Shown one piece after another: positions 3,099 through 19,735 of a stretch of DNA of 64,000 nucleotides. Position numbers and translations under genes: made by a program. The stretch comes from Chitinophagales bacterium (GTDB lineage: Bacteria > Bacteroidota > Bacteroidia > Chitinophagales > UBA10324). Positions within the stretch are counted from its first letter, which is position 1. Each line of letters begins with the position of its first letter. A model generated the notes under the pieces. The model did no database searches and was not told the origin of the DNA. It worked only from the letters and a program-made list of their open reading frames with translations. Location: the NCBI GenBank assembly GCA_019694975.1, contig JAIBAY010000003.1, forward strand, positions 62,001 to 126,000. Reading direction: 5' to 3'.

Positions 3099-4991
3099 TT
3101 AATTCCAGAATCGCCATTCCAACCCCAGCTTAAATGACCTGTCCGGCATAGGTGAACGATACACTGCAAAGTAACCGGGCCCGAACATGTCCTTGTTAAT
3201 ATGCTGCATCATTGCAAAAGCCCTTACGCCTTTTACCTGCAACGAAATAAATAAATCAGCCACCGGATAATAATGCAGCTTGCTGAATTGCTGCTGATAA
3301 AACTGACCGGTTTCCGGCATATAGGCAGGAGCGAAATAATCATTGTTATAACGTATGTCAATCCCGATCTTGCTGTGCAAGGCGCCCTTAAACAGACGGT
3401 TCTCAAAATAAAAACTCTGCCGCAACAGGAATGTCGGAAAGCTCACGACAGTATCGTTGCTGTAAGACTGATATTGCAATTCATTCTCCAGGTGAAATCC
3501 CTTGTACACAAAGTTTTTCTGAAGAAAAAAAGAATACGCTTTCAGCACACGATCATACTGCGCCGGCAGTGCATCGCTGTTCCAGTATAAATAGTTTTTG
3601 ACTGAGAAGAACTGAGCGGATAATTTTAATTTCCATACCGTTTGCTCCCAGGAAACAGAAGCAATAGCAGTATTGTAAGCCGAAAAATTATTGTTCCAGC
3701 TGAAATGGTTTGACAAATAGTGTTGCTGAATGTAGGAAGGGTGATTTGATGCGTTTTGCGCATCAACAGTAATGATATTTGATGCACCGGCATGCACATC
3801 CATAAGAAATTGCAAACGGAAATCGCCTTGATTTCTGTCGATAAGATTCACTTCACCAGCCAGCTGATATTCCAGTCTTAACCTGTTAACGGAATCAGGC
3901 CGTCCTGTTTTGCGTAGTGCAATGCCGGCAATTCCATTTTGTACTTTTTCACCGCCCAGCGCCGACTGCAACGCATACAGATCATGATGTAAATAAAGGT
4001 CTGCAGCAAAATTCCTCAATGGCCCGAGATCGCTTTTCATTGTGCGAAACCTGACTTCACTGCTTACACAATCAAACTTTAAGGTGTCTCGTGTAAGAAC
4101 TGAATCCAGGTAAATATTGGAATAGAAGGCGCTGTCAATAGCTGCATCCCGGAACCTGTAACTGCGTCTTTCCCACTGAACCGATTGCTGCAGCCGCCAT
4201 TTCGGAATAACCTTTCTATATGTGACGGAATCATTCTTTTTCACGTCAACCTTTTCACCGAAATCAAAACTATGCTGAAAAAAAAGCACATCATTCTTGC
4301 CGGTATTCATTGCGCTGTCCAGCAGCACTGGCTGCAACGACTTGTCGAGTAAAGTTGTATCGGTAAACACATCGGTATTTTCCACCCCTCCATTTTCTTC
4401 TACCTTCAATGAATTGAGTATGTAGGAAAAATCCAGGTGATAAAAACCATTTTGAGATGCATACCTCGTAAATGCGTCCATATTGGTGATCTTGGTTACC
4501 TGCCGCTGATAGAAGCCGTCTGTTCTGTAGCGGTTCAGGCTGACGCCTAAACTCCATTGTGGCAGTATATTCTGGGTGTGAATGAATGAACCCAATACTT
4601 CGGCTTTTGAACCTTGTTGATAGGCGACGACAGTGTATGGATGTTTTGAATCAAAATATTTTACAGCATCGCTTTTCAGCCAGTAAAGATCAAACTGATG
4701 AAAGCCAATATCAAAAGCGGCATCCGAAGGCGGTAAAAAAAACATCGGTCCGGCGGCGGCACCGATATGCCCGGTATGCAAATATCCAAATGCAGCCTCC
4801 GCAGGATGATACCTGTTGAAATAGGTAATAACCGTATCGAGCTGATAATAAATATCAGGATCCTGCATTAAAGAATAACTCGTCCAGGAAGGATTGTAGT
4901 TGAAAACGGTGTCTTGCGCGGTGGAAACCTTGGCCAATAAGAGTGTTGACAGGAGCAGTATGCAAACAACGGGTTTATTAAAATTTACCAT
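3099..4991 (-). CDS. Putative outer-membrane porin (Porin_10-like)
   Basis: A 630-residue protein with a signal peptide (MVNFNKPVVCILLLSTLLL, cleavage after about STAQ) and a long beta-rich body with alternating aromatic residues ending in W-R-F-W-N, as expected of an outer-membrane barrel. The N-terminal pattern (TYFNRYHPAEAAFGYLHTGHIGAA) and overall layout fit the Bacteroidota putative-porin family (Porin_10), whose substrates are not known. An upstream TTG at 5018 would add nine residues, but the ATG at 4991 starts the signal peptide directly. A TATCGTTG -7-like box lies at 5016-5023. It converges with the preceding secreted-protein gene with 27 nt between the stops. Confidence 0.75.
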   Translation of the reverse strand: MVNFNKPVVCILLLSTLLLAKVSTAQDTVFNYNPSWTSYSLMQDPDIYYQLDTVITYFNRYHPAEAAFGYLHTGHIGAAAGPMFFLPPSDAAFDIGFHQFDLYWLKSDAVKYFDSKHPYTVVAYQQGSKAEVLGSFIHTQNILPQWSLGVSLNRYRTDGFYQRQVTKITNMDAFTRYASQNGFYHLDFSYILNSLKVEENGGVENTDVFTDTTLLDKSLQPVLLDSAMNTGKNDVLFFQHSFDFGEKVDVKKNDSVTYRKVIPKWRLQQSVQWERRSYRFRDAAIDSAFYSNIYLDSVLTRDTLKFDCVSSEVRFRTMKSDLGPLRNFAADLYLHHDLYALQSALGGEKVQNGIAGIALRKTGRPDSVNRLRLEYQLAGEVNLIDRNQGDFRLQFLMDVHAGASNIITVDAQNASNHPSYIQQHYLSNHFSWNNNFSAYNTAIASVSWEQTVWKLKLSAQFFSVKNYLYWNSDALPAQYDRVLKAYSFFLQKNFVYKGFHLENELQYQSYSNDTVVSFPTFLLRQSFYFENRLFKGALHSKIGIDIRYNNDYFAPAYMPETGQFYQQQFSKLHYYPVADLFISLQVKGVRAFAMMQHINKDMFGPGYFAVYRSPMPDRSFKLGLEWRFWN

Positions 4992-5140
4992 CTGAACTAT
5001 CTTATCCGCGGATGCCAACGATAAACTTTTCGGATGAATGGCGACGCGAAAGTGCTGTCGGAAAACGCTTTGTTACTGTTGCTGAATACTTTGAATAACT
5101 GGCAGGTTGGCTGCATGCAAATGAATGTTATGATTTATTT

Positions 5141-6007
5141 TCAAACAACAGTCAATAACTCCCGGAGAATAGTTGCCATGCGGGGTTCTGCTTCCCGTGC
5201 CGCATTCACCACTTCCTGATGTGTAACGGACACCGGTACCGGCGGATTGCCTTCATCACAGATCACTGAAATACAAAATATCCTCATGCCCATGTGGTTA
5301 GCCACAATCACTTCCGGCACAGTGGACATGCCAACTGCATCGCCGCCAATGATCCGCATATACCTGTATTCTGCCGGTGATTCAAAGTTGGGACCAGTCA
5401 CACCCACATACACACCTGTGTGGCAAGTTATGGCATGCCGGCGGGCAATATTCAGTCCCTGATCAATCAATGCCTTATTGTACATAGCATGCTGATCCGG
5501 AAACCTCGGACCTAATGATTCTATATTTTCACCCCGCAACGGATTATCTGAATTAAGGTTAATATGATCCGTTACAATCATCAGCTCACCAATTTTAATA
5601 GCAGGATTCAGTCCGCCGGAAGCATTGGTAACAAACAAATTCACCGCACCCAGCAATTTAATTACCCTGACGGGAAAAGTCACCTGCTGCAGTGAATAAC
5701 CTTCATAGAAATGAAACCTGCCTTGCATCACAGCCACCTTTCTTCCGTTCCATTCTCCCATACAAAGTTTGCCGGGATGTCCGTGCACGGTGCTTAAAGG
5801 GAAATGGGGAATATCCCGGTAGTCAATCACATCCTGAATGTTTATTTCACTCACGATGCTGCCCAATCCTGAACCCAGCACTATGCCGGTTTCAGGAACG
5901 ATGGTCGTTCGTCGTTTTATATAGGCAACCGCTTCGTCCAGCCTCTTCACCAATGTATCCATTGTGTTCAATTTGTCATTTGCATCCTGATAAACTGAAT
6001 CATTCAT
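5141..6007 (-). CDS. Purine-nucleoside phosphorylase, trimeric inosine/guanosine type
   Basis: Catalyses phosphorolysis of (deoxy)inosine and guanosine in cytoplasmic purine salvage. Hallmarks in order: phosphate-binding GSGLGSIVSEI, HGHPGK, MQGRFHFYEGY, VTNASGGLNP, NSDNPLRGEN, then GPNFESPAEYR and GGDAVGMSTVPE near the base-binding site. The frame is open to an ATG at 6064 inside lpxK; the ATG at 6007 is chosen because it overlaps the lpxK stop by 8 nt (ATGAATGA), a usual coupling layout, and gives 288 residues. An ATG at 5962 (273 residues) is also possible and closer to the family length. It is probably the second gene of an lpxK-led transcript. Confidence 0.93.
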   Translation of the reverse strand: MNDSVYQDANDKLNTMDTLVKRLDEAVAYIKRRTTIVPETGIVLGSGLGSIVSEINIQDVIDYRDIPHFPLSTVHGHPGKLCMGEWNGRKVAVMQGRFHFYEGYSLQQVTFPVRVIKLLGAVNLFVTNASGGLNPAIKIGELMIVTDHINLNSDNPLRGENIESLGPRFPDQHAMYNKALIDQGLNIARRHAITCHTGVYVGVTGPNFESPAEYRYMRIIGGDAVGMSTVPEVIVANHMGMRIFCISVICDEGNPPVPVSVTHQEVVNAAREAEPRMATILRELLTVV

Positions 6008-7103
6008 CCTGCCGACTGCCTTCAGTACTTTGCCCGTGATCTTCGGCATTGAATGAATGAACAAATGATCTTATCATTTCATCAAATTGCTTTCTATCTG
6101 CTTCAGGAAAAACTGTTTGTACTGGCATGCAATATATTTCAAGTTGATGACTATCGATAAATTCTTTAAATGGTAAAAGCCTGACGGCATCCTTCTCGGT
6201 TGTCAAGAGCATCTTATTCCCGCCTTTCATTCCTGAAAACTGCTGATGAATATCTTTCAGTTGCTTCAGGCTAAACGGATGATGGTCTTTGAAACGAATC
6301 AGTTGCACCGCAGCTTCTTTGCGCTGCAGACAGGTTACTAATGCATCTGGGTTCGCAATTCCGCAAAATAACAGGACCTGATCGCCGGCTGCAACACCTC
6401 GTTTCCTGGTATTATCAAATATATCATAGGGCTCACCATATTGCAAGGTGGAGAAGAACACGGGTTTTGACAGCACAGGTGACAGCTCACGCTTCAATGC
6501 TTCACGCTCATTTCCACTCAGTGCAACCGGACATTTTGTAACAACAATTACATCTGCCCTTAATGCTCCGCTTGCAGACTCCCGTAACCGGCCGGCCGGC
6601 AATAACCGGTCTCTGGTAAAAAGATGAGCATACTCAGAAAGCAGAATTGAAAATCCGGGTTTAACAGCTCTGTGCTGAAATGCATCATCCAGGATGACAA
6701 CCTGCAAGCCGGGTTCATCACTCACCATACTCACCAGGCCTATCACTCTTGATTCGCAAACGGCTACCATCACTTGTGGAAATTTTCGCTTGAGCTGCAT
6801 GGGTTCATCTCCTGTTTCCCTATAACTTAACTGCTGCTCTACTTCCAGGTAACCTTTTGTTTTGCGACGGTAACCACGGCTCAGGACACCGGTTTTATAG
6901 GAAGTTGCAAGCAGGGAAATAAGGTACTCCGCCATGGGTGTTTTACCCGTACCGCCAGCGGAAAGATTACCAACGACAATGACGGGAAAAGCGAATGCGA
7001 CAGACTTTCTGATTCCGAGGTCAAATTGCCTGTTATGCAGCGCCGCTCCGGCTCCATACAACCATGAAAGCGGCAATAATATTTTCTGTAAGAACCTATT
7101 CAT
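6000..7103 (-). CDS. lpxK: Tetraacyldisaccharide 4'-kinase LpxK
   Basis: LpxK phosphorylates the 4' position of the lipid A disaccharide-1-phosphate at the inner membrane. The protein is 367 residues long. It has a hydrophobic N-terminal helix for membrane association, the family's Walker A in GNLSAGGTGKTP (45-56), the following GVLSRGYRRKTKGYLEV stretch, and GDEPMQL and VVILDDAFQHRAV, all typical of LpxK. The C-terminal third carries LLTTEKDAVRL, also conserved. It shows that the organism makes lipid A. The gene overlaps the purine nucleoside phosphorylase start by 8 nt and is divergent from the Nif3 gene. Confidence 0.96.
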   Translation of the reverse strand: MNRFLQKILLPLSWLYGAGAALHNRQFDLGIRKSVAFAFPVIVVGNLSAGGTGKTPMAEYLISLLATSYKTGVLSRGYRRKTKGYLEVEQQLSYRETGDEPMQLKRKFPQVMVAVCESRVIGLVSMVSDEPGLQVVILDDAFQHRAVKPGFSILLSEYAHLFTRDRLLPAGRLRESASGALRADVIVVTKCPVALSGNEREALKRELSPVLSKPVFFSTLQYGEPYDIFDNTRKRGVAAGDQVLLFCGIANPDALVTCLQRKEAAVQLIRFKDHHPFSLKQLKDIHQQFSGMKGGNKMLLTTEKDAVRLLPFKEFIDSHQLEIYCMPVQTVFPEADRKQFDEMIRSFVHSFNAEDHGQSTEGSRQDE

Positions 7104-7234
7104 TGTATATACAAGTGGAGCTCTCAGTACCTAAACAGCAAAACAATCTGAAGACGGAACCTGCTGCCTGTTTTTTTAATGCAACTATCCGTCAAATATG
7201 ATAAGAATAAAAAGATCACTCTGTTTGCAAACGC

Positions 7235-7242
7235 TATTTTTG
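7235..7242 (+). promoter_or_regulatory. -7 element for the Nif3/zinc-ribbon pair
   Basis: TATTTTTG is a perfect -7 consensus 17 nt before the GTG at 7260. It lies inside the in-frame extension that begins at 7179, which argues that the extension is not translated. No -33 box is clear. Confidence 0.42.
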
Positions 7243-7259
7243 TTCACAAATCTTTAAAG

Positions 7260-8354
7260 GTGAAATTGTCAGAAATTACCAAGGCCCTGGAATCCTTCGC
7301 TCCGCTTAGCCTGCAGGAAAATTATGATAATGCCGGACTGTTAACCGGCAATCCTGAGCAGGATGTACAGCAAGCAATGCTTTGCCTCGATATTACCGAA
7401 GAAGTGCTGGAGGAAGCAATTTCCACCGGCTGCAACCTTATTATTGCGCATCATCCGGTAATTTTTTCAGGGCTGAAGAAAATAACCGGCAGTAACTATG
7501 TAGAACGCATCATTATTAAAGCCATTCGTCATGATATCGCCATCTATGCAGCACATACCAATCTGGATAACCTGTTACGGGGTGTAAATGCAAAAATCGC
7601 CGGCCGGCTCAATCTGCAAAATACTACCGTGCTTACACCTGCAAGGCAGCAACTGATGAAGCTGGTCACATTTGTCCCCGTCGTTCATGCCGATAAGGTG
7701 AGAGACGGGCTGTTTGCAGCAGGCGCCGGCAGTATCGGAAACTATGATGAATGCAGTTTCAATACCGATGGAACCGGAACTTTCAGAGGTAATGAGCTCT
7801 CACAAGGTTTCACGGGTGAAAAAGGGAAAAGACACTATGAGCAAGAAACAAGAATTGAAGTAATATTTCCTGTATGGCGAAGGCAGCACATACTCTCGGC
7901 ATTGAAGATGTGCCATCCTTATGAAGAAGTTGCTTATGATTTGCTGCATTTGTCTAATACCTTATATGAGGTTGGGATGGGACTGATCGGTAAACTCCCG
8001 GCAGCCATGGAACCTGTTGCATTCCTGAAATTCCTGAAAGAAAAAATGGCAGCCAAAGTAATCAGGCATACCGCGCTTTGTAAAGAAATGATAACTACCG
8101 TTGCTGTCTGCGGTGGCGCCGGCAGTTTCCTGCTGGAGGCGGCAAAAAATGAAGGAGCCGACCTTTTTATCACTGCTGATTTCAAATATCACCAGTTTTT
8201 TGATGCAGATAAGGATATAATTATTGCAGATATCGGGCATTTTGAAAGTGAACAATTTACGCCGGAGATTTTTGCTGATGTTTTAAGGCAAAGATTTCCT
8301 ACTTTTGCCGTCCGTTTTACTACTGTTAACACTAATCCAATAAACTATTACTGA
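7260..8354 (+). CDS. Nif3-like dinuclear metal-centre protein (YbgI/YqfO family)
   Basis: A 364-residue member of the Nif3 family, which forms hexameric toroids with a two-metal site; the family is often named GTP cyclohydrolase 1 type 2 although its activity is not settled. Metal-ligand motifs are visible: AHHPVIFSG and YAAHTNLD in the first half, and ADFKYHQFFDAD and DIGHFESEQ in the second. Between them is a domain of about 120 residues as in YqfO. The start is placed at GTG 7260 (KLSEITKALESFAPLSLQE, matching the family N-terminus) rather than ATG 7179, since a -7 box lies between the two. Its stop overlaps the start of the next gene (TGATG), so the two are translationally coupled. Confidence 0.92.
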   Translation: MKLSEITKALESFAPLSLQENYDNAGLLTGNPEQDVQQAMLCLDITEEVLEEAISTGCNLIIAHHPVIFSGLKKITGSNYVERIIIKAIRHDIAIYAAHTNLDNLLRGVNAKIAGRLNLQNTTVLTPARQQLMKLVTFVPVVHADKVRDGLFAAGAGSIGNYDECSFNTDGTGTFRGNELSQGFTGEKGKRHYEQETRIEVIFPVWRRQHILSALKMCHPYEEVAYDLLHLSNTLYEVGMGLIGKLPAAMEPVAFLKFLKEKMAAKVIRHTALCKEMITTVAVCGGAGSFLLEAAKNEGADLFITADFKYHQFFDADKDIIIADIGHFESEQFTPEIFADVLRQRFPTFAVRFTTVNTNPINYY

Positions 8355-9112
8355 TGGCAAAAGTGAAAGAAGCTCCAAAAACCGATAATTCGGTTGAAGA
8401 GAAATTGAGGGTGCTTTACCGTCTTCAAAAAATTGACACCAAGACGGATGATATTCAGGTGCTGAAGGGTGAACTTCCGATGGAAGTGAAAGATTTGGAA
8501 GATGAGCTGACAGGATTGAAGACACGCATTGGCAAGATTGAAGATGAGCTGAAAGAAATGGAAGAAAACATTGCCAGCCGCAAAAACTCAATCAAAGAAG
8601 CGGAATCATTAATCAAGAAATACCAGAAGCAGCAGAACAACGTAAAAAACAACCGTGAGTTCGATGCCCTTAGTAAAGAAATAGAACTGCAAAAACTGGA
8701 TATACAGCTTGGCGAAAAGCGCATGCGAGAAGCAACGGATGAAATGGCCGCAAAAGGTGTATACCTCGAGGCTTCCAAAAAGGCCATCAAGGAAAAGGAG
8801 AAAAACCTGAAGCAAAAAAAGGAGGAGCTGGAGCACATTATTGAAGAAACTGATGCGGAAGAAAAAGCGCTCTTGAAAAAATCAAAGGAACAGCAATCGA
8901 AGATTGAAGAAAGGTTGTTGCAGGCTTATCACCGTATTCGCAGTTCTTACAAAAACGGCCTTGCCGTGGTAACGGTTCAACGGGACGCCTGCGGGGGTTG
9001 CTATAATGCTATTCCGCCACAGACGCAGATGGAGATCCGTCAGCACAAAAAAATCATTGTGTGTGAACATTGCGGCCGCATACTTGTGGATGAGGCTTTG
9101 GAAAGCAAGTAA
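8354..9112 (+). CDS. Coiled-coil protein with C-terminal C4 zinc ribbon
   Basis: A 252-residue protein: an almost uninterrupted charged coiled coil from about 40 to 190, then a C4 zinc ribbon with Cys213, Cys216 (CGGC) and Cys237, Cys240 (CEHC). This is the zf-RING_7/CT398-like family, found next to Nif3-family genes in many bacteria; partners proposed in the literature include flagellar or secretion proteins, but none is evident here. The start ATG overlaps the nif3 stop by two bases. The family role is unknown; the constant pairing suggests that it acts with Nif3. An intrinsic terminator follows 30 nt after the stop. Confidence 0.9.
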   Translation: MAKVKEAPKTDNSVEEKLRVLYRLQKIDTKTDDIQVLKGELPMEVKDLEDELTGLKTRIGKIEDELKEMEENIASRKNSIKEAESLIKKYQKQQNNVKNNREFDALSKEIELQKLDIQLGEKRMREATDEMAAKGVYLEASKKAIKEKEKNLKQKKEELEHIIEETDAEEKALLKKSKEQQSKIEERLLQAYHRIRSSYKNGLAVVTVQRDACGGCYNAIPPQTQMEIRQHKKIIVCEHCGRILVDEALESK

Positions 9113-9142
9113 TCAAATAAAGCAAATGACAGAATGATTGAA

Positions 9143-9169
9143 AGGGCTTCGACAGAAGTCCTTTTTTTT
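9143..9169 (+). terminator. Intrinsic terminator after the Nif3/zinc-ribbon operon
   Basis: An 8-bp stem AGGGCTTC / GAAGTCCT (one G-U pair) with a GACA loop is followed directly by a run of T residues at 9162-9169. It ends the two-gene transcript. Confidence 0.8.
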
Positions 9170-9241
9170 GGTTGCTCCGCATCGTGACTCTGCATAAGTC
9201 GGGTTGTACTGCTGCTCGCAAATTCCTAATGAGACATCTTT

Positions 9242-10747
9242 ATGATGATGACAAGGAATGAGAAATTATCTTATCTGTTCAGAACAGTGTTTCCGGTTCA
9301 GCTGGGAATACTGTTGTTTGTGTATGTGCTGGCGCGTGCCATTTTACTCCCCATCACACACGATGAATCCAATACCTGCCTCACCTATTCAACAATGTCC
9401 GTTCATGACATTGTTACTTATGAAAGACCCATTCCCAACAACCATATCCTGAATACACTGCTGATTAAGTTGTCGGCTTCCATTTTTGGCATGCATCCGT
9501 TTTCCGCACGATTACCAAATGTGCTTGGGTTTATATTATACTTTACCATCGTTGTGCTCTTTACCCGAAAAGTAACGAACGACGCAATAGTAACCTTCTT
9601 CGGCATCTGTGCCATGGTTTGCAATCCTTACCTGCTTGATTTTTTCTCCCTTGCCCGTGGTTATGCGCTATCCATCTCTTTCATGATGACAGGTATCTAT
9701 TTTGCCTGGCTCTTTCTTCAGCGGCAGAAAGATAAATACCTCGCATTGGCTGTACTATTTGGAATGCTGGCCGTCTATACAAATTTCACCACCCTTAATT
9801 TTTATGCGGCACTTATTGCTTTACTGGGTATCGCCACATTTCAAATGAAGCTTCAGATGCGAGGTGAACATAAAAAATGGGTACAAACGCTGGCCAGGCA
9901 ATGGTTTATTCTCCTTATCGGTTCGCTGATGCTGGCCGGAGCTTCTTATATTCCCATCAGCAAGATGGTCGCAACTGATCAGTTTGTATACTGGGGCACC
10001 AATGGTTTTTATAAAGATACGGTACTCACTTTACTCTATGCCAGCCAATACAATGTTCCATATTTCCACCTGCATGCTGAAGTATTCAGCTACCTGCTTG
10101 CCGGCATTGTCGGTGTAATGGTGTTTTGTGCCATGCTGCTTCTCATAAAAAACAGGACAGGCTGGTATAAAAACGCACAGGTTTTTTTTATGGCACTTTT
10201 CATTTTCACTATCATCGTAAATGTATTGCAGTTTTACCTTGTGCACACACCTTATCTGACTTCCAGAACAGCATTATTCTTTTACCCGCTGATGGCGCTC
10301 AATTTTATTTTTTTCGCGGAATGGCTGCGTGCTTATTCACCGCTGTCAAGATTTTATTTTTCACTGCCGCTGACAGCTTTGGCGCTTTTACACCTGTCGA
10401 GGTCGGCTAATCTTACATCCTGTTTTGAATGGTGGTATGATGCCGATACCTACAAAGTGATGAATTATTTGGAAAGCGAACACAGGAAAACCAATTTACC
10501 AATATCACTCAATTGCAGTTGGTGGTTCTTCCCTTCTCTGAATTTCGACATCGTGACTAAAAATAAAGATTGGATTACATTGGCTCCCTTTCACCAGGAT
10601 TTTGAACCCAAAAGGGACGCTTTGTATATGTACTATTATACAACCTCAGATGATACGAAACATCTGGCAGCTTCCTATGATACTGTATTATCGTTGGGAT
10701 GGAATTCACGTTTCCTGATGCGAAAAAAAGAAACGATCAACGAATAA
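9242..10747 (+). CDS. GT-C fold membrane glycosyltransferase-like protein (GT39/ArnT-type)
   Basis: A 501-residue polytopic membrane protein with about ten hydrophobic segments. After the first membrane span it carries THDESNTCL, an acidic pair in the first outer loop, where GT-C enzymes (PMT/ArnT) keep their catalytic Asp. The following RPIPNNHILNTLLIK and PFSARLPNVLGFILY also follow the ArnT/GT39 pattern. Such enzymes use polyprenyl-phosphate sugars on the periplasmic face; the donor and acceptor cannot be told from sequence. ATG codons at 9242, 9245 and 9248 are all possible starts. Neighbours give no clear operon partner. Confidence 0.75.
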   Translation: MMMTRNEKLSYLFRTVFPVQLGILLFVYVLARAILLPITHDESNTCLTYSTMSVHDIVTYERPIPNNHILNTLLIKLSASIFGMHPFSARLPNVLGFILYFTIVVLFTRKVTNDAIVTFFGICAMVCNPYLLDFFSLARGYALSISFMMTGIYFAWLFLQRQKDKYLALAVLFGMLAVYTNFTTLNFYAALIALLGIATFQMKLQMRGEHKKWVQTLARQWFILLIGSLMLAGASYIPISKMVATDQFVYWGTNGFYKDTVLTLLYASQYNVPYFHLHAEVFSYLLAGIVGVMVFCAMLLLIKNRTGWYKNAQVFFMALFIFTIIVNVLQFYLVHTPYLTSRTALFFYPLMALNFIFFAEWLRAYSPLSRFYFSLPLTALALLHLSRSANLTSCFEWWYDADTYKVMNYLESEHRKTNLPISLNCSWWFFPSLNFDIVTKNKDWITLAPFHQDFEPKRDALYMYYYTTSDDTKHLAASYDTVLSLGWNSRFLMRKKETINE

Positions 10748-10833
10748 TGCAAAACCTCCATTTGAATTTTTCAGCATCCAATTTTTGCATCAATAGCTAT
10801 TTTCACAGTTACATTTATGTTTAATCTGGTCCC

Positions 10834-12456
10834 ATGAAAAGAATTCTTTTTATTGCTCTGTCATTTGTTTCATTCGCGCAGCTAAGTGCCGCTCAGCAAA
10901 GCAATGCACCTGCTAAACCTAAATTGGTGGTCGGCATCGTGGTTGACCAGATGCGTTATGATTACATCTGGAGATTCTGGGATCTCTATGGAGAAGGCGG
11001 ATTTAAAAAGCTGGTCAATGACGGATTCCTTTGCAGGAACACACACTACAACTATTTCCTGACCACAACGGCGCCCGGGCATGCCTCCATCTATACGGGC
11101 ACTACTCCGGCTATTCACGGAATTGTCGATAATGGCTGGTATGACAGGGCTTCAGGAGCTGAAATTTATTGCGTAACAGATCCTTCTGTAAATACGGTCG
11201 GCAATGAGACCGCCGGTGTTTCAGCTTCGCCTTTCCGGCTGGAAAGCTCTACGATTACTGATGAGTTGAAACTGGTAAGCAAATATTCAAAAGTTATTGG
11301 CATTGCCCTGAAAGACCGTGCTGCGATTATGCCGGCCGGACATCTGGCAGATGGCTCCTACTGGTTTGATTCCAAAACAGGTAACTGGATCTCAAGCACC
11401 TGGTATATGAAAGCCCTGCCGGAATGGATGCAGCAATTCAACAGATCCCGGAAACCTGATGCTTATCTTTTGAATGACTGGCGCTTGCTGCTACCGCGAA
11501 AAGATTACATTATGTGCTCCGGTGATACGGTTCCTTATGAAAGCAGTTTACCGGGCGAAATGCTTCCAGCCTTCCCTCACAGGATGGTAAAAAACAACTA
11601 TGCACTGATTCCAATATCACCCTATGGAAATACCATGACAAAAGATGTTGCCATTGAAGCGATAAAAGGAGAACAATTGGGTAAACATACAACCACTGAT
11701 TTTCTTTGTGTCAGCTTCTCCTCCACCGATATCATTGGTCATTCCTTTGGTCCGAATTCATTGGAAACAGCAGATTGTTATGCGAGGCTGGACAGGGATC
11801 TTGAAGCGCTGATCAAATTTATTGATGATTACGTCGGCAAAGACAATGTGCTGATATTCCTCACCGCCGATCATGGTGCAGCCTTAAATCCACAGTTCGC
11901 CAATGATGAGCAGTTAAACGGAAGATTTACTAACGCCGACAAATTGATGATTGACCTTAACAAGCACCTCTCATCCTTATATGGACAGGATTCCCTGGTG
12001 GCCGGTATCGGCAGTCAGCAGATTTATCTTAACAAAAAACGTATCGCTTCCGCCAAAATATCAGAAGCTGCTATAGCCGGCAAAATTCGCGATTACCTTA
12101 TTCTGCTGCCAGACATTTTGTGTGTGTGCGCGCCAGATTATAACATTAATGACTGCTCACCATATGTACAAACCACCATCATGAATGGTTTTCAACCTGC
12201 CAGGAGTGGTGACATTCTTTACTCGCTTTCACCGGGAACTGTTGACTGGCATCTTACTACCGGCACTTCACACGGTACCGTTTATGCTTATGACAATCAT
12301 GTGCCGCTGATCTGGTATGGCTGGAAAATAGCACATGGAACATCTGCCGATGCGACAGTCATTCCGGATATTGCACCAACTATTTCAAATTGGATGAATA
12401 TCTCCTTTCCATCAGGCTGCACAGGCAAGCCCATTACAGGCATTCTTATGAAGTGA
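10834..12456 (+). CDS. PafA-type alkaline phosphatase (periplasmic phosphomonoesterase)
   Basis: A 540-residue secreted alkaline phosphatase superfamily protein with a signal peptide (MKRILFIALSFVSFAQLSAAQ). Residues match the Elizabethkingia/Flavobacterium PafA active site: nucleophile Thr79 in TTTAPGHAS, Asn100 in VDNGW, and Lys160-x-Arg162 in ALKDRAA. Metal ligands are Asp38 (VVDQM), an Asp/His in DIIGHSFGP, an Asp/His in TADHGAAL, and a His near GTSHGT. PafA enzymes release phosphate from organic monoesters and are independent of Ser-type PhoA. The gene stands alone, with 86 nt after the previous stop; a weak TACATTTA box lies at 10810. Regulation by phosphate cannot be seen. Confidence 0.9.
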   Translation: MKRILFIALSFVSFAQLSAAQQSNAPAKPKLVVGIVVDQMRYDYIWRFWDLYGEGGFKKLVNDGFLCRNTHYNYFLTTTAPGHASIYTGTTPAIHGIVDNGWYDRASGAEIYCVTDPSVNTVGNETAGVSASPFRLESSTITDELKLVSKYSKVIGIALKDRAAIMPAGHLADGSYWFDSKTGNWISSTWYMKALPEWMQQFNRSRKPDAYLLNDWRLLLPRKDYIMCSGDTVPYESSLPGEMLPAFPHRMVKNNYALIPISPYGNTMTKDVAIEAIKGEQLGKHTTTDFLCVSFSSTDIIGHSFGPNSLETADCYARLDRDLEALIKFIDDYVGKDNVLIFLTADHGAALNPQFANDEQLNGRFTNADKLMIDLNKHLSSLYGQDSLVAGIGSQQIYLNKKRIASAKISEAAIAGKIRDYLILLPDILCVCAPDYNINDCSPYVQTTIMNGFQPARSGDILYSLSPGTVDWHLTTGTSHGTVYAYDNHVPLIWYGWKIAHGTSADATVIPDIAPTISNWMNISFPSGCTGKPITGILMK

Positions 12457-12560
12457 TTTTCAGCATGTGTTTTGAAACCGGATTGCTGAAGAATCAACAG
12501 TTTGATCTCTGTTGCTAATACAAATAGTCTTTGAAAATGGGTGCTTCTTTTGCGCGAATG

Positions 12561-13619
12561 CTACAGGCGCTGATATTCAAATTGAGGATATCCCTTCTCA
12601 CCTTGCTCATTGTAAAAATCAATAAAACGGAGTTTCCAATAGACACCATTCAGGTCGCGCAGTATATAATTGATATTTGAATGGACTACATAAGCTGCTT
12701 TGTCGAAGTCATAATACTTCCAGCCATACCCGATGATGTCACGGTTATCCGCAAAGTTTAAAGCCACTGCTTCCTGATAACCAATTTTACTGAAAGTCAT
12801 GGTGGAATCTATTGCCACTGCCATGCCGGGATTAATCAGCACGCCTGTAACCAGGTAAGGCAAAGCTGGATGCTGATCATAAAAGATGTAGCGATAGTGC
12901 GTAAACTGCAAATGCCAATCCTGCCGTTTGGGTTCAATATCCGGCAGGTTACCATTTTCTTCAAAAGAAAAATACTTAAAGGTGTAAAGATCATTTTTGG
13001 GAATCTGCACATTGTGCCAGTCGCTTCCGTCCAGGTTTGCATATTCCATTTCATAAGCCGCATCCGATACACTTTGAAAAATTATTTTTTTATAGCGTTT
13101 TTCGGCGGGTTTTAGATAGCCAAGATCCAAAAGGTACACTTCCTGACTATTGCGCCATTCACCAATGGCTGTTGAATCAGGGTTCCAGCTCGATTCATCC
13201 CATTTCCAGGTGACTCCGGAAATGCTGCTGACTGAGTCGAAGTTTTTTGTATTCATCCGTGCGATCAGTGCAAGGTTACCTCCATTCATCCAGATGTGCC
13301 AGCCTGATGTTGCTGCTTCAAAACATAAATCCCAGGAATCGTAATTGCTGCCGAGTGTATCGCCGTTACTCAGATTAAAATACTGCTGCCGGTGATAATC
13401 CGCAGTCAAAGCAACCTGGCTGATGTGTGCATCGCCCGGCGGCGGAAGTACCATAGCCGTATCTCCCTTAAAGCAGGAAGACATAGCTGTGATAAACAAC
13501 CATACTGCGATCACAGATACAATAGAGTTCAAATGACGGAGCAGCTGATCTACTTTGAAAATGCCGGATTTCTCCAGCGCACAAAACACTTTCATACATC
13601 CTATGTTATGGTATGACAT
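12561..13619 (-). CDS. HmuY-family lipoprotein, putative heme- or metal-binding
   Basis: The region after the N-terminus matches the HmuY pattern: YFNLSNGDTL, then SWDLCFEAATSGWHIWMNGG, and a second half with DWHLQFTHYRYIFYD, PYLVTGVL and GYGWKYYDF. The second HmuY-like gene upstream shares the same blocks. HmuY proteins are surface lipoproteins that capture heme and hand it to a TonB receptor. A lipobox (FITAMSSC) puts the lipid Cys at residue 49 from ATG 13619, leaving a long stretch before the hydrophobic core. A TTG at 13532 would give a normal 20-residue lipoprotein signal, so the start is uncertain. The gene begins 3 nt after the TonB-receptor stop, so it is surely co-transcribed. The heme ligands cannot be assigned without alignment. 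Confidence 0.8.
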   Translation of the reverse strand: MSYHNIGCMKVFCALEKSGIFKVDQLLRHLNSIVSVIAVWLFITAMSSCFKGDTAMVLPPPGDAHISQVALTADYHRQQYFNLSNGDTLGSNYDSWDLCFEAATSGWHIWMNGGNLALIARMNTKNFDSVSSISGVTWKWDESSWNPDSTAIGEWRNSQEVYLLDLGYLKPAEKRYKKIIFQSVSDAAYEMEYANLDGSDWHNVQIPKNDLYTFKYFSFEENGNLPDIEPKRQDWHLQFTHYRYIFYDQHPALPYLVTGVLINPGMAVAIDSTMTFSKIGYQEAVALNFADNRDIIGYGWKYYDFDKAAYVVHSNINYILRDLNGVYWKLRFIDFYNEQGEKGYPQFEYQRL

Positions 13620-13622
13620 GGA

Positions 13623-15863
13623 TCATTCCCTGTAAAATTTAAACCGCACCGATGCAAACACGAATCTTCCCGTTGCATAAGGGATAGTTTCGGCTCCGGA
13701 AGTATGCACAGCTCCGGCATTTGCATTGCTTTGAATATTCACTACATTGAAAATATTCTTAATACCCGCGGAGAACCCTATCCGCTTTTGCAGTGCATAT
13801 TTGGTTGCCGAAAAGTCAAGAATCGTATAGGCACCGGTGAAAACCTGGATCACTTTGCCCTCTGCATCAAGATTGAATGAAGGCGTTTCACCCGTATGCT
13901 TAAAAAAAACGGCACATTCAAAACCGGCTTTTGGAAAGGTCAGCAGTAAGTTGTTCCGGAGCTCAGGCGTAAGTGAGAATTTGTCAATCGCGAACGAATC
14001 AGACAATACATTGAAAAGCCCGGTTAAAGAAAAGCCCGTGGTCAATGACAGATGTGCTGAATTCAGTGATGCAGATATAGTTGTCCCTGCTGTTTTATAT
14101 TCATCAAGATTGATGTACGTATAAAGCTGGGCAGCCTGATCAACCAATGCAAGTGTAATGATATTATGGATGCTGTTATAAAATAGCGCGGCATCGGCTT
14201 TGAGATTCCATTTTTCTTCTTCTTTAACTGCAGTAAAAGACAAGCCAAAGTTATCGGATGTCTCAGCCTGGAGTTCACTATTGCCAATAATGTTATGGTT
14301 TATATCAACAAAATATAAATCGAGCTCTTTCAATGATGGCGCCCGGAAACCATGAGCATAGGAAGCACGCACCGTGTACTTTGAAAGAAAGCCATACCTG
14401 ATATTAAGTGAAGGGGTAGCCGGCGCGCCATATCGGGTGTTGTATGAAAAACGAAGGCCGGGACGGATAAAAAAATTATTAAAGGCACGGTACTCTACAC
14501 TGCCAAATAGGGCATAATCATTTATTTGCTGCTCTCCCGACATTAGTTTATCACCTTTGCCGGTTTCCAGATTGATATCATAGCCGGCCTGAAAATTAGA
14601 CCTGCGAAGCGGCAAACTGTTGTTATAAGTACCCCTGAATGACCACGAATCAAAAACGTTTGTATCCTGAATCGCTTCCGCAGTCAACAAACTCTGTTCA
14701 AGAGATACAAGGTCAGTTCTGTAAATGTTGCGGATATGACGGTAATAACTGTATGCATTGATGAATTGCAGCTTCGCACTATTTGGGAACCGGTATTCAG
14801 CAGTCAACGCATTATTCCACCTTCTGGTGAAATAGTAATCATCAAATGCGTATGCCTGATAGGGTGTTAAAACCGGATTTCCCTTGTTTTGGATTTGTTG
14901 CTGGAAGTAATCTGTCCTGAATCCGATTTTCAGTGACTTTCCCAGGTAGTCATAATTAAATGTGGTAAAATATTGTTCCCTTGGCTTCCATTCCATCCAC
15001 CTTGAAGTATCGGTTGATGAAAACCCGTCAAAAAAATTGCGGCCACCTGAAAGTGATATGGCATTGTTGCGCTTACGCCAGAACACTGCAGCATCGCCGT
15101 TGTAGGTTCCAACCGTTTCATAGTACAGATGCAGATCTGCCGCTAACGGATAGCTGCTGGTTTTCCTGGTTACAATGTTGATCAAACCGCCAATAGCATC
15201 GGTGCCATAACTCACGGACATGGGACCTTCTACTATCTCTATGCGATCCACATTATTCATGTTGATCTGGCTGACATCAATATTACCGCCTTCTCTCCCA
15301 ATTACATTGACACCGTCAATAAGAATCTTGACATGCTGGCCTGATATTCCATTCATGCTTACACTGCTGCCTAAAATATTATCCTCAGACAACCGGCAAT
15401 TCAACTGATTCGACAACACATCTGAAAGATTCTTAGCCGCCATTGATTCAATGGCAGATCTGTCAATCACCTTGATGTTATAGATTGATTTATCCGTCGT
15501 ATTAATGTCATATTGCCCGGTAACGACCACTTCACTGAGGTTCACACTTAACCGGTGGAGGAAAAATGTATAAGAAGCTCCCGGCAAAACGGTATCCTGA
15601 ATCGTATTAAATCCAGCCGCTTGGATATAAATCGCAACCTTCTCCGGAAAAACATTTTTCAGCTCTCCTTGTTGATCCGTAAAAAGGATCATTTGCTTAT
15701 CGCCTGATTCAGGATTTAATGGCTGTAGTATAATAACTGCTTCTGCCAGTGGTTCCTTCAGATCATTGTCCATTACAGCAATCGTACCGGGCTTCTGCGC
15801 AAAAACAGGACTAAGAAAAAAAACAAATATGCACGTTAACCAACTACCACTGCTGTAATTCAC
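13623..15863 (-). CDS. TonB-dependent outer-membrane receptor, HmuR-like position
   Basis: A 746-residue receptor: signal peptide (cleavage after about PVFAQ), an N-terminal carboxypeptidase-regulatory-like domain (about 25-100), then the plug (about 110-230: SEVVVTGQYD, LIDGVNVIGREGG, IEIVEGPMSVSYGTDAIGG), then the 22-strand barrel ending VRFKFYRE. These receptors import bound ligands using TonB energy. Flanking HmuY-family genes suggest heme or a heme-like chelate. The start is GTG, 5 nt after a perfect -7 box with a TTTG -33 box 18 nt further up, so the mRNA is probably leaderless. The downstream HmuY gene starts 3 nt past the stop. Confidence 0.92.
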   Translation of the reverse strand: MNYSSGSWLTCIFVFFLSPVFAQKPGTIAVMDNDLKEPLAEAVIILQPLNPESGDKQMILFTDQQGELKNVFPEKVAIYIQAAGFNTIQDTVLPGASYTFFLHRLSVNLSEVVVTGQYDINTTDKSIYNIKVIDRSAIESMAAKNLSDVLSNQLNCRLSEDNILGSSVSMNGISGQHVKILIDGVNVIGREGGNIDVSQINMNNVDRIEIVEGPMSVSYGTDAIGGLINIVTRKTSSYPLAADLHLYYETVGTYNGDAAVFWRKRNNAISLSGGRNFFDGFSSTDTSRWMEWKPREQYFTTFNYDYLGKSLKIGFRTDYFQQQIQNKGNPVLTPYQAYAFDDYYFTRRWNNALTAEYRFPNSAKLQFINAYSYYRHIRNIYRTDLVSLEQSLLTAEAIQDTNVFDSWSFRGTYNNSLPLRRSNFQAGYDINLETGKGDKLMSGEQQINDYALFGSVEYRAFNNFFIRPGLRFSYNTRYGAPATPSLNIRYGFLSKYTVRASYAHGFRAPSLKELDLYFVDINHNIIGNSELQAETSDNFGLSFTAVKEEEKWNLKADAALFYNSIHNIITLALVDQAAQLYTYINLDEYKTAGTTISASLNSAHLSLTTGFSLTGLFNVLSDSFAIDKFSLTPELRNNLLLTFPKAGFECAVFFKHTGETPSFNLDAEGKVIQVFTGAYTILDFSATKYALQKRIGFSAGIKNIFNVVNIQSNANAGAVHTSGAETIPYATGRFVFASVRFKFYRE

Positions 15864-15868
15864 AAATT

Positions 15869-15898
15869 CAAAAATAAATTTCCCGTTTTTTCAACAAA
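15869..15898 (-). promoter_or_regulatory. Promoter of the TonB receptor, leaderless layout
   Basis: On the minus strand TTTG (15895-15898) is followed after 18 nt by TATTTTTG (15869-15876), both perfect matches to the Bacteroidota consensus. The -7 box ends 5 nt before the GTG start of the receptor, so transcription should begin at or next to the start codon. This second promoter lies between the first HmuY-like gene and the receptor. Confidence 0.6.
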
Positions 15899-15920
15899 TT
15901 CAAACAGATCCGTTCTGCCA

Positions 15921-17171
15921 CTATTGAGCAATCATCACTTTCAGATGCACTTCATCATTTCCCGATTTCAGCGCAAGAAGATATAATCCAACAGGAAGCT
16001 CAGGAAGCTGGAACGACCGTTGATTTATACCGGAAGCAGCCGGAAAATCAGTGCTAAATACTTCCCGCCCGTTAACATCATTTAATATGAGCCGAACTTC
16101 ATTCAATGAGCTTTTCGCATCAAAAACAAGTTGTAACCTGTCATGAACAGGATTGGGATAAACCGCTGCCGCGCTCAGTGCAAGATTCAGGTTACTAACA
16201 GATGATACCAAATCAGTCTGGCTCCAGGAGATGACGCCGGTGGAAGAACCTTCAAAATCGGTAAACACCAGTTTATAGATGCTGCCATCTGCAAGCTTTA
16301 CAAAATAGCATAATGAATCAACGATAACGTATTGACTGCTATTCATGTCAAAATACTTCCAGTCGTATCCAATTGCCGAGATGCTGTTCACATAGGCATT
16401 GCTGTAATCGTTAGCCTCTGCGGTGTTTACGTCTACATTAGCAGCCCTTGCGACTGCTACACCTGCATTACTTAAAACACCTGTTACCAGGTAAGGCATA
16501 TTGTCGGGTGGCAACAGGGTAACATATCGTGTAAACAGGAGGTCCCAATTACTGTTATCCGGTTCCAGGTTTAGCGGTGTGCTGTTGGTAACGGAGTAAT
16601 AAGCAAAATTCTTATCCGGATAATCAGTGGCATTAAGTGTCACGGTCTGATCATTGGTGTTGTCAAGGTTGGCATACCGGAATGTCCAGTTACCGAAATC
16701 CTTTTTTACAATCCAGAGTTTCTTATAGTTGGAAGTACCCAGTTTAAGGATAAACAAAGAATCACCATTTACAACATGCGTAGTCATGTCATAAACACCC
16801 CACCCGAAATCAGGAAATACGGTTGTTGACCGGTCAAATGCACCAAATTCCCATGATGTATCACTGTTGAAAAGCTGAGGCCAGGTGTTCAGACCAGCGG
16901 TATCAAGGGTAGCCCAACCTGAAATATCAGTATTGGGCACTTGATATAAGGAAACTCCATTGGCAGAATTAATGAATATGGAAGAATTCTGTAAACCCAT
17001 CCTGAACGCAAGTTCCCAGCTGTTGATTGAGGCCTGTCCTGAAATTCCACTCTGTAACTTCCAGAAAACTTCATTTGCATAACCGGGGCCCATAACAGCG
17101 GAAGCCGTTGTCTGGGAAATAGCATTGCCGGCAAATAACAATATAATTATAAGTAGAAATACATTTTTCAT
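15921..17171 (-). CDS. HmuY-family protein with C-terminal T9SS sorting domain
   Basis: A 416-residue secreted protein: signal peptide (MKNVFLLIIILLFAGNAISQ), an HmuY-like body (VFWKLQSG, NSWELAFRMGLQNSSIFINS, then WDLLFTRYVTLLP, PYLVTGVLSNAGVAVA, IGYDWKYFDMNS), and a type A sorting domain from about 335 (VYPNPVHDRLQLVFD ... LPVGLYLLALKSG ... KVMIAQ). HmuY proteins are normally lipoproteins; a T9SS-delivered form would be secreted or attached to the surface through A-LPS. The body repeats the blocks seen in the lipoprotein two genes downstream, so the two are paralogs. It is the first gene of the HmuY/TonB/HmuY unit, with a perfect -7 box 22 nt before the ATG. Confidence 0.85.
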   Translation of the reverse strand: MKNVFLLIIILLFAGNAISQTTASAVMGPGYANEVFWKLQSGISGQASINSWELAFRMGLQNSSIFINSANGVSLYQVPNTDISGWATLDTAGLNTWPQLFNSDTSWEFGAFDRSTTVFPDFGWGVYDMTTHVVNGDSLFILKLGTSNYKKLWIVKKDFGNWTFRYANLDNTNDQTVTLNATDYPDKNFAYYSVTNSTPLNLEPDNSNWDLLFTRYVTLLPPDNMPYLVTGVLSNAGVAVARAANVDVNTAEANDYSNAYVNSISAIGYDWKYFDMNSSQYVIVDSLCYFVKLADGSIYKLVFTDFEGSSTGVISWSQTDLVSSVSNLNLALSAAAVYPNPVHDRLQLVFDAKSSLNEVRLILNDVNGREVFSTDFPAASGINQRSFQLPELPVGLYLLALKSGNDEVHLKVMIAQ

Positions 17172-17193
17172 TTGGCATTTATTTTATCGGCGC

Positions 17194-17201
17194 CAAAGGT
17201 A
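17194..17201 (-). promoter_or_regulatory. -7 element for the HmuY/TonB/HmuY unit
   Basis: Minus strand TACCTTTG is a perfect -7 consensus, 22 nt before the ATG at 17171. No clear -33 box; such weak -33 boxes often go with activator-dependent promoters, and iron or heme control would be expected for this locus. No Fur-like palindrome was recognised. Confidence 0.45.
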
Positions 17202-17292: not shown

Positions 17293-19236
17293 CTAATCCA
17301 TTGCTACGGCACCTTCCTTATACAACTGATCGCGGTATTTTATTGATGGAGAAGTAAGTTTCGGACCGAGGGAAAGCGTGTCCCACTTGTCATCAATGGA
17401 TTGTATGGTTTGCTCATCCATGCAGATAATATTTGGCCAATCACGATCAAAGCCATCATATTCCTTCGTCTTACGTGTTCCATCAAATCCAATGTGTGAG
17501 ATCTTCAAATCATCCTCTGCCGGCAGCATAAAACTGTCACGCCGTGGATCAACGTTATTGCTCCAGCGCCAGATTACTGAAGCAAGGTCTTGCACATCCA
17601 CGCTGCTTTCCACATAAATGATAAACTTCACTGCTTTAAGCTGCGACTCACGAAATAACTTATCATTGAGTTCGCGCAGGTGATTTTTCCGGTTCTTTTT
17701 AACGGCAATGAAAACCACAGAAATTCCAATTTCAATAAGCGCGGTATTCACATCAATTATTTCAGGGTACTCCAAGCGCATGGACTTCTTAAAAGCATCT
17801 GACCAATCCAATATGGCATCTGTAACAGAAGAGGTCTGCAGGTTGCTGATCAAACTGCTTTGCGTAATACGCAATTCTTCCTGGAATTTACGGGTAGCAT
17901 CTATGCACATTTTACCACCAAAAGCCATTCGGGAACAAGAATGATCGAGCACATCCATTGGACCCTGTGAGAAGAAAATATCCTGTTGCGGATCAACATT
18001 TTCAGACACAGCCTTTGCAACCGCAGTATAATCACTGATATTGATATCCTCATCTACCACCACCAGCATTTTATTAAACATCATTTGCCCGGCTCCCCAC
18101 ATTGCATTGGTAACTTTTTGCGCCTGCCCCGGATATTCTTTCCTGATCTTTACAATGGTCAGGTTATGAAATACGCCTTCAATTGGCAGCTCCATATCAA
18201 TAATTTCAGGTACCAGTGTCATCTTTATGGGAGCGAGAAAAATTCTCTCTGTGGCCTTGCCGAGCCAGGCATCTTCCTGAGGAGGAATGCCGACAATGGT
18301 GGATGGATAAATCGCCTGCTTTTTATGGGTGATACATGTGATGTGAAACTTAGGATAGTAATCTGCCAGTGAGTAGTAACCGGTGTGGTCTCCAAAAGGT
18401 CCTTCCATAATATATGCTTCATCAGGATCAACATAGCCTTCAATAATAAAATCAGCATCAGCCGGAACTTCCATATCTACCGTCAGGCACTTCACAAGTT
18501 CCACTTGCTTTTTACGCAAAAAACCAGCGAGCATATATTCATCAACGTTTTCAGGCAATGGTGCTGTAGCTGCATAAGTATATACAGGATCACCGCCAAG
18601 CGCCACTGCCACTGGCATACGTTTCTTCAGCTTTTTGTATTCATTAAAATGCTTCGCCGAAACCTTATGCTTATGCCAGTGCATACCTGTGAGCACTGGT
18701 CCGAAAACCTGCATACGGTACATGCCCACGTTACGGATGCCGGTATTGGGATCTTTGGTATTGATTACAGGCAACGTGAGAAACGGTCCGCCATCAGCAG
18801 GCCAGCAGGTCATTACCGGGAGACTTGTGATGTCGGGAGTGGCCATCACCACTTCCTGGCATTCTCCTTTACCTGGCCTCACTTTCGGCATCCATGAAGC
18901 CATTTGTGAAAGCTTGGGCAGCATCATCAGTTTTTCAAGAATACTGTCCTTTGGCTTCATCAATGATTTGAACAACTGCTCAATTTCTGATGATACATCA
19001 TCAAGGTCATTTACACCGAGCGCCATACAAATACGCTTGCGTGAACCAAAGGCATTGATTAGCAAAGGGAATTCAGTCCCGTTATTTTCAAACAAAACCG
19101 CCGGTCCGTTATTTTTAGAAAGCCGGTCAATCACTTCCGTTATTTCCAGGTGCGGGTTAACAAATGATTTAACACGAACGAGTTCGCCGGCTCTTTCCAG
19201 CTCATCTGCAAAATGTTTTAAAGATCTGTATGCCAT
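17293..19236 (-). CDS. UbiD-family decarboxylase (prenylated-FMN dependent)
   Basis: A 647-residue UbiD-family enzyme, of the size of the Bacteroidota proteins annotated as menaquinone biosynthesis or 3-octaprenyl-4-hydroxybenzoate decarboxylase. Seen in order: N-terminal MAYRSLKHFADELERAGEL, RNVGMYRMQVFG and GMHWHKHK near the prFMN/metal site, VALGGDP, GPFGDHTGYYS, and MELPIEGVFHN, the family's catalytic segment. These enzymes need the cofactor made by UbiX, which is not in the window. The frame is open to a TTG at 19284, but ATG 19236 matches the family N-terminus. A menaquinone role is likely but not proved, since many UbiD enzymes act on other aromatic acids. Confidence 0.88.
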   Translation of the reverse strand: MAYRSLKHFADELERAGELVRVKSFVNPHLEITEVIDRLSKNNGPAVLFENNGTEFPLLINAFGSRKRICMALGVNDLDDVSSEIEQLFKSLMKPKDSILEKLMMLPKLSQMASWMPKVRPGKGECQEVVMATPDITSLPVMTCWPADGGPFLTLPVINTKDPNTGIRNVGMYRMQVFGPVLTGMHWHKHKVSAKHFNEYKKLKKRMPVAVALGGDPVYTYAATAPLPENVDEYMLAGFLRKKQVELVKCLTVDMEVPADADFIIEGYVDPDEAYIMEGPFGDHTGYYSLADYYPKFHITCITHKKQAIYPSTIVGIPPQEDAWLGKATERIFLAPIKMTLVPEIIDMELPIEGVFHNLTIVKIRKEYPGQAQKVTNAMWGAGQMMFNKMLVVVDEDINISDYTAVAKAVSENVDPQQDIFFSQGPMDVLDHSCSRMAFGGKMCIDATRKFQEELRITQSSLISNLQTSSVTDAILDWSDAFKKSMRLEYPEIIDVNTALIEIGISVVFIAVKKNRKNHLRELNDKLFRESQLKAVKFIIYVESSVDVQDLASVIWRWSNNVDPRRDSFMLPAEDDLKISHIGFDGTRKTKEYDGFDRDWPNIICMDEQTIQSIDDKWDTLSLGPKLTSPSIKYRDQLYKEGAVAMD

Positions 19237-19735
19237 GTCAATCCTGTTATCAGGTGTTAAATTTAGAGAAAAGAAACTGCGCAATTCCGGCGGGAGAAGT
19301 CTAAAGTAAAATCCACATTAAATGTATGTTCAACACCTGTCAAATCCTGCAACTGTTGCCAGTATAAGTTAACAGGAGACTTATACGTTTTGTTTACAAC
19401 GAGCAGGATAGGCTGACCTGCGGCAATGCTGATAGTATAGCGGCTGAGAATATAAACTGCTATATCAGTTCACCAGCGCTGATTGTTAAGCATTATGCGG
19501 AAATAACTGCTTGAGATTTCCATATAGATGGAACTTTTCAAGGAGAGACAAACTCATCGCTTCTTAAATCATAAATGGATACTGAAACTTTGTTGGTATG
19601 CTCCGGAACCAAATATTACGCAAGGCGTTTCAGGCTCCACTGAAATTCACTTGATTTTATCAGTATCAAAAGATGCAGCTAAAATATATTTGCCGCTGAC
19701 AATCCTACATCAAAAACCGGTACGATTACTTGGCA
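19237..19735. other. Intergenic gap with no supported gene
   Basis: About 500 nt between the UbiD start and the FadL-type stop. A 126-codon plus-strand frame at 19528-19908 runs antisense into the FadL-type gene and is rejected. On the minus strand a stop-to-stop frame of about 67 codons (roughly 19262-19470) reads like protein (AAGQPILLVVNKTYKSPVNL) but has no ATG, GTG or TTG near its beginning. It could be a gene remnant or chance. A weak TACTTTAG -7-like box for ubiD lies at 19301-19308. Nothing else was seen. Confidence 0.5.

Follow-up and report, generated by a model that had tools for sequence, protein, structure and literature searches.

A three-gene locus with two HmuY-type proteins

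We analysed a 64,000-nucleotide stretch of a Chitinophagales bacterium genome (GCA_019694975.1, contig JAIBAY010000003.1, positions 62,001 to 126,000; hereafter the window, with coordinates counted from its first letter). Three minus-strand genes of this window (12561-17171) encode, in transcription order, an HmuY-type protein routed to the type IX secretion system (T9SS), a TonB-dependent receptor and an HmuY-type lipoprotein. We propose that the trio is a heme-acquisition cassette and put the probability of this reading at about 80%. The host genome spans 4.3 Mb in 14 contigs and is rated 100% complete. An initial annotation, made from the letters of the window, had described these genes in this order with a type A T9SS tail on the first product, and the coordinates, the Pfam and NCBIfam matches to the sorting families and the predicted folds agree with it.

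The T9SS-routed protein (P0003, 416 aa, 15921-17171) consists of a signal peptide (about residues 1-19), an HmuY-fold body (about residues 20-325) and a type A T9SS C-terminal sorting domain (residues 337-414, encoded at 15930-16163 on the same strand). The receptor (P0002, 746 aa, GTG start, 13623-15863) matches PF00593 with 108.5 bits and PF07715 with 71.6 bits. Its residues 506-531 (14271-14348) form a FRAP...H523...NxxL box, with the codon of H523 at 14295-14297, and the alignment of receptors places a second invariant histidine, H720, near the C-terminus (codon 13704-13706). The lipoprotein gene (P0001, at most 352 aa, 12561-13619), assigned by PF14064 and by its structural model, carries the codon of the lipobox cysteine C49 at 13473-13475; this cysteine, from which the sequence reads C-F-K-G-D, is invariant in 34/34 aligned relatives. 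The distance of 3 nt from the receptor stop that was first given for the lipoprotein start depends on the first ATG at 13619. Among the candidates, the true start probably lies downstream of it, for example at TTG 13532, because most close orthologues start some 20-30 residues ahead of the lipobox and because, in two congeners, stops appear on aligning the sequence upstream of it.

Both flanking proteins are predicted to share the HmuY fold

Compared with the HmuY family model PF14064 (cut-off 27 bits), the lipoprotein scores 57.8 bits, above the cut-off, and the T9SS form 22.4 bits (E 1.4e-4), below it; an orthologue of the T9SS form at locus L054 reaches 47.4 bits. The two proteins also match one another (82.8 bits, E 7e-22). 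Searches of solved structures with single sequences lacked the power to place the proteins in a family, and orthologue profiles were decisive: the lipoprotein profile (34 orthologues) retrieved 8b6a at 2.9e-10 and HmuY at 1.5e-7, and the T9SS-form profile (31 orthologues) retrieved HmuY at 1.1e-6. The AlphaFold2 models are confident (mean pLDDT 91.4 for the lipoprotein and 90.9 for the T9SS form). All ten best Foldseek matches of the lipoprotein model belong to the HmuY family, and VIA-align superposes this model on all eight listed HmuY-family entries with Z 11.5-15.7, the next, unrelated entry reaching Z 5.1. The T9SS-form model gives Z 11.2-14.1 to the same entries, including 14.1 for PinO (6r2h) and 13.1 for HmuY with heme (3h8t), which align between residues 17 and 325; residues 333-415 in turn align with the T9SS C-terminal domain of mirolase (8qb1; Z 12.3, rmsd 1.7). 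We count the T9SS form as HmuY-type despite its sub-cut-off sequence score because the fold comparison settles the assignment. Judged by these models, both are HmuY-fold proteins, and the family assignments that had been read by eye are borne out, by family score for the lipoprotein and by modelled fold for the T9SS form.

Both HmuY-like bodies are enlarged, at about 290 residues or some 1.6 times the length of the solved HmuY proteins (about 180). When the halves of each body were compared by profile, those of the T9SS form were related with 96% probability and those of the lipoprotein shared only a short motif; the structural alignments spread across both halves. The enlarged bodies likely contain an internal repeat, as the comparison within the T9SS form suggests.

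Receptor motif and export signals

Heme and hemoglobin receptors carry a histidine in loop L7 between FRAP and NxxL motifs (PMC9331221), and the window's receptor has FRAP at 506-509, H523 and NSEL at 528-531. In an alignment of 68 cassette receptors (median identity to the window's receptor 38%), 28 columns are invariant and two of these are histidines, H523 and H720. H523 is present in 68/68 cassette receptors and in 27/27 other HmuY-linked receptors, and the aligned column holds it in 0/20 of the other receptors of the host genome. H720 is distributed similarly (68/68, 26/27 and 1/20), and none of the 20 other receptors of the host has both. At the level of sequence, then, the cassette receptor carries the heme-receptor motif.

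The tail of the T9SS form scores above the cut-offs of the sorting families PF18962 (38.1 bits) and TIGR04183 (31.0 bits), as its initial typing had led one to expect. It is kept in 31/31 aligned orthologues and, among the titled-genome loci described below, in 58/58 full-length T9SS forms and in none of the lipoprotein forms. With this tail following a signal peptide, the protein has the sequence features of type A T9SS cargo and would be secreted by that route. At least 150 type A sorting tails occur in the 4.3-Mb host genome (314 candidates, 150 scored). For the lipoprotein, the consensus for surface export of Bacteroidota lipoproteins is C-x-K-(D/E)2 after the lipobox (PMC5080379). Its relatives have K at +3 in 56/69 and D or E at +5 in 63/69, mostly as C-x-K-x-(E/D), and the C-F-K-G-D of the window's protein fits in part. 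Surface display of the lipoprotein form is likely because its relatives show this export consensus.

The unit is conserved across Bacteroidota

In the GTDB family of the host, the lipoprotein has a match in 14/16 genomes, and the order of the trio is the same wherever contigs permit. Across the order (396 genomes), a strong T9SS form is present in 123 genomes and a strong lipoprotein form in 66, with 63 genomes in both sets; the thresholds were E < 1e-60 and E < 1e-25, and the sets also include G003, in which a contig end truncates the gene. With the lipoprotein profile as query, 84,980 titled genomes yielded 326 relatives, and among the best 80 of these 326 the T9SS form, the receptor and the lipoprotein form are all present in 61 loci. 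The hosts of the trio belong to the Chitinophagales, the Flavobacteriales (Crocinitomicaceae, Cryomorphaceae) and the Bacteroidales (Lentimicrobiaceae). In a 69-row tree, T9SS and lipoprotein forms fall on opposite sides of a single branch (support 100/99). Over 57 loci the pairwise distances of the three proteins correlate at 0.78-0.82, a value reached in 0/2000 shuffles and explained in part by shared ancestry. By this comparison of sequences, the two HmuY forms and the receptor are an old partnership. The conservation of the unit, the single old split and the correlated divergence together argue that both HmuY forms matter.

Two loci (L129 and L152) have two tandem T9SS-HmuY genes ahead of the receptor and lipoprotein genes. 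An apparent fusion of receptor and lipoprotein in G014 ('open frame 1105') was rejected, as a TAG stop parts two in-frame genes.

Heme-import operons in relatives and the need for heme

In several relatives the cassette is joined to genes for a binding protein, a FecCD permease, an ATPase and HemS (families f17, f21 and f13, and Flavobacteriales). In f17 the T9SS form is the first gene of an operon with Peripla_BP_2, FecCD, ATPase, HemS and receptor genes, and the ATPase scores 262 bits against the heme-transporter model NF010068, just over its cut-off of 261. When genomes of f17 and f21 have both HemS and a T9SS form, the T9SS form lies within 6 kb of HemS in 22/27. A complete seven-gene operon (T9SS-HmuY, binding protein, permease, ATPase, HemS, receptor, lipoprotein-HmuY) is found in G060 (locus L077), in Flavobacteriales UBA2798 (L146) and in the cultured Acidiluteibacter ferrifornacis S-15 (L149). 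Locus L078 (G086, 4788-12588, minus strand) holds Peripla_BP_2, FecCD, ATPase, HemS, receptor and lipoprotein HmuY genes without a T9SS form.

The host genome has no match to ferrochelatase or HemB and has two COX1 genes for cytochrome oxidases. This combination is shared by its GTDB family, where 15/16 genomes lack both ferrochelatase and HemB and 16/16 have COX1. Across the order, ferrochelatase is absent in 54/66 carriers of the lipoprotein form vs 99/330 others (odds ratio 10.5). The association holds by genus (20/26 vs 38/138, p 3e-6) and within genus g31 (p 0.02), with p-values that are indicative only, the genomes sharing ancestry. Carriers of the T9SS form only show no link to ferrochelatase loss (26/60 vs 127/336) and are linked to HemS (26/60 vs 16/336). 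We therefore take the association with ferrochelatase loss to be a property of the lipoprotein form or of the complete trio. Possibly, genomes with HemS take heme for its iron, and those without HemS and without heme synthesis take it whole; HemS has no match in the host genome.

A proposed heme-acquisition cassette and its alternatives

In the mechanism that we propose, the T9SS-secreted HmuY-type protein and the outer-membrane HmuY-type lipoprotein would bind heme outside the cell and deliver it to the adjacent TonB-dependent heme receptor for import. In this scheme the secretion of one form, the surface display of the other, heme binding by both and heme transfer are inferred. As tetrapyrrole synthesis was not detected in the genome, the imported heme would most likely serve as a ready-made cofactor of the respiratory chain. 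Heme as the ligand is strongly supported by the receptor motif, the operons of relatives, the missing synthesis in the presence of oxidases and the association with ferrochelatase loss. We prefer an order in which heme passes from the secreted form to the anchored form and on to the receptor, although we would put this relay at slightly under even odds.

Several observations weigh against this reading, beside the shared ancestry behind the p-values. A conserved His/Met heme-ligating pair, such as most characterised HmuY proteins possess, was sought in both HmuY forms among their aligned relatives and none was found; the strongest candidate ligand residues are the invariant Y75 and Y255 of the lipoprotein and Y127 of the T9SS form, together with H132 of the latter (27/31), and HmuY-Bf-2 likewise lacks residues that coordinate the heme iron (PMC12106395). 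NCBIfam does not type the receptor, as the B12, heme and siderophore models all stay far under their cut-offs: the heme receptor models TIGR01785 and TIGR01786 give 107.8 and 110.5 bits for cut-offs of 316.9 and 323.8, and the HemS-adjoining receptors of relatives also fall short of the heme receptor cut-offs. The host genome has no match to a FecCD permease for the inner-membrane step. In the order, 73/153 genomes that lack ferrochelatase have neither strong HmuY form, and G001, a 99% complete genome of the same family, has COX1 without HemB, ferrochelatase or either HmuY form; other heme routes must therefore exist. Conversely, G009 has both heme synthesis and the cassette. It is the sole family member with both HemB and ferrochelatase, whose genes lie about 1.4 kb apart (G009:C12:21556-24865) and may have been regained by transfer or kept as one locus. 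Finally, deletion of the T9SS-HmuY of Flavobacterium columnare caused no growth defect (PMC9618737).

The alternative that fares best keeps heme as the ligand and dispenses with the relay: the lipoprotein would be the standing partner of the receptor, as HmuY is to HmuR, and the T9SS form would be a scavenger that docks on the receptor unaided or takes heme off other carriers. Loci with a single form favour such parallel capture. In f17 the T9SS form accompanies receptor and HemS with no lipoprotein form present, and in f20 the lipoprotein form accompanies the receptor with no T9SS form, so each HmuY form can serve a receptor on its own. Where they co-occur, however, the two forms remain paired from order to order and their divergence is correlated, for which a relay accounts no less well. 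Parallel capture is thus a serious contender that we would nonetheless not bet on. The two-step capture put forward in the initial annotation accordingly stands as to a heme-type unit with two HmuY forms, one of them sent to the T9SS, but not as to its order, which the sequence does not reveal; parallel capture accounts for the evidence equally well.

A different ligand imported through the HmuY fold, such as another porphyrin, cobalamin or an iron-siderophore, is unlikely. Among NCBIfam models the receptor scores highest with that of the B12 receptor (133 bits, cut-off 600), Peripla_BP_2 and FecCD also serve B12 and siderophores, organisms without HemB are unable to make B12 as well, and the lack of a conserved heme-ligating pair in both HmuY forms would suit such a ligand. 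Set against this are HemS/ChuX and a heme ABC ATPase within the operons of relatives, the FRAP/His/NxxL box of the receptor with its second invariant histidine, the homology to HmuY and the association with ferrochelatase loss. That the genes are neighbours by chance, or that a recent local duplicate of HmuY gained a T9SS tail, is highly improbable: tails are so numerous in the host that one alone is unremarkable, but the single split of the two forms (100/99) predates their spread across Bacteroidota, the tail is confined to the T9SS forms (58/58) and gene order is kept across orders.

Relation to known systems

The proposed heme-acquisition cassette resembles the Hmu system (hmuYRSTUV) of Porphyromonas gingivalis, itself a heme auxotroph, in that a heme lipoprotein of the HmuY fold adjoins a TonB-dependent heme receptor. 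P. gingivalis has a single HmuY, about 180 residues long, that ligates heme through a His-His pair and lacks a T9SS tail; the genes that follow encode CobN-like HmuS and membrane proteins (PMC10434189). The window has two enlarged HmuY forms, one of them T9SS-tailed, without these genes next to them. A single HmuY lipoprotein beside HmuR, as first assumed for known systems, is only roughly right, as some genomes are known to encode two or three HmuY homologues (PMC12106395). In Prevotella intermedia a T9SS-tailed protein adjoins hmuY and is described as a separate T9SS protein, not as HmuY (PMC10434189). F. columnare C6N29_01035, which we liken to the T9SS form by its description, combines PF14064 with a T9SS tail and is reported to be secreted by the T9SS; it is presented as a single gene, and neither a neighbouring receptor nor a lipoprotein form is mentioned (PMC9618737). 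In Flavobacterium psychrophilum, HfpR and HfpY are a receptor and an HmuY-type heme binder on one transcript, with heme binding and use shown (PMC9331221). They differ from the cassette in having one HmuY-type protein, a DoxX gene in between and a FRAP/NxxL motif only partly kept in HfpR. Operons of the HmuTUV/HemS type are joined to the cassettes of relatives, and are represented in the host genome by neither a HemS nor a FecCD match. The secreted heme carrier HasA feeds the TonB-dependent receptor HasR and is, in principle, comparable to the proposed cassette; it has a different fold, is secreted by a type I system as a single carrier and is no relative of HmuY.

HmuYR, genomes with several HmuY proteins and a lone T9SS-secreted HmuY were thus already known, and the apparent novelty is the pairing of two HmuY forms, one routed to the T9SS, mostly in hosts that lack heme synthesis. 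No description of such a dual cassette was found in the open-access full-text literature (subscription papers were outside the scope). A survey of environmental heme auxotrophs detected none of the known heme receptors in 60% of their genomes and described work on how these organisms acquire heme as almost a gap (PMC11139205). For many such auxotrophs among the Bacteroidota, the cassette is a candidate heme route that can be recognised from sequence and, if the proposal is true, it would extend the T9SS cargo of free-living bacteria to heme capture. Its relatives include a cultured strain open to gene deletion, and with two proteins and a receptor the hand-off between hemophores is directly measurable with recombinant material. 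More speculatively, and with less confidence than we give the relay in the window, a Bacteroidota-wide two-hemophore relay could be the main heme entry of many free-living aerobes that have lost heme synthesis, with binding through residues other than His/Met, possibly tyrosines, in enlarged and internally repeated HmuY proteins.

Neighbouring genes

No hmuSTUV genes (CobN-like HmuS, ExbB-like and DUF2149 proteins) adjoin the cassette of the window. Its neighbours are an unrelated gene on the opposite strand, 3' of the lipoprotein gene, and a gene for a UbiD-type decarboxylase (17293-19284, minus strand) directly upstream of the T9SS-HmuY gene. The decarboxylase gene has the same position in four further loci (L024, L026, L027 and L028); in genus g8 a different gene takes its place, and it is probably a local neighbour outside the unit.

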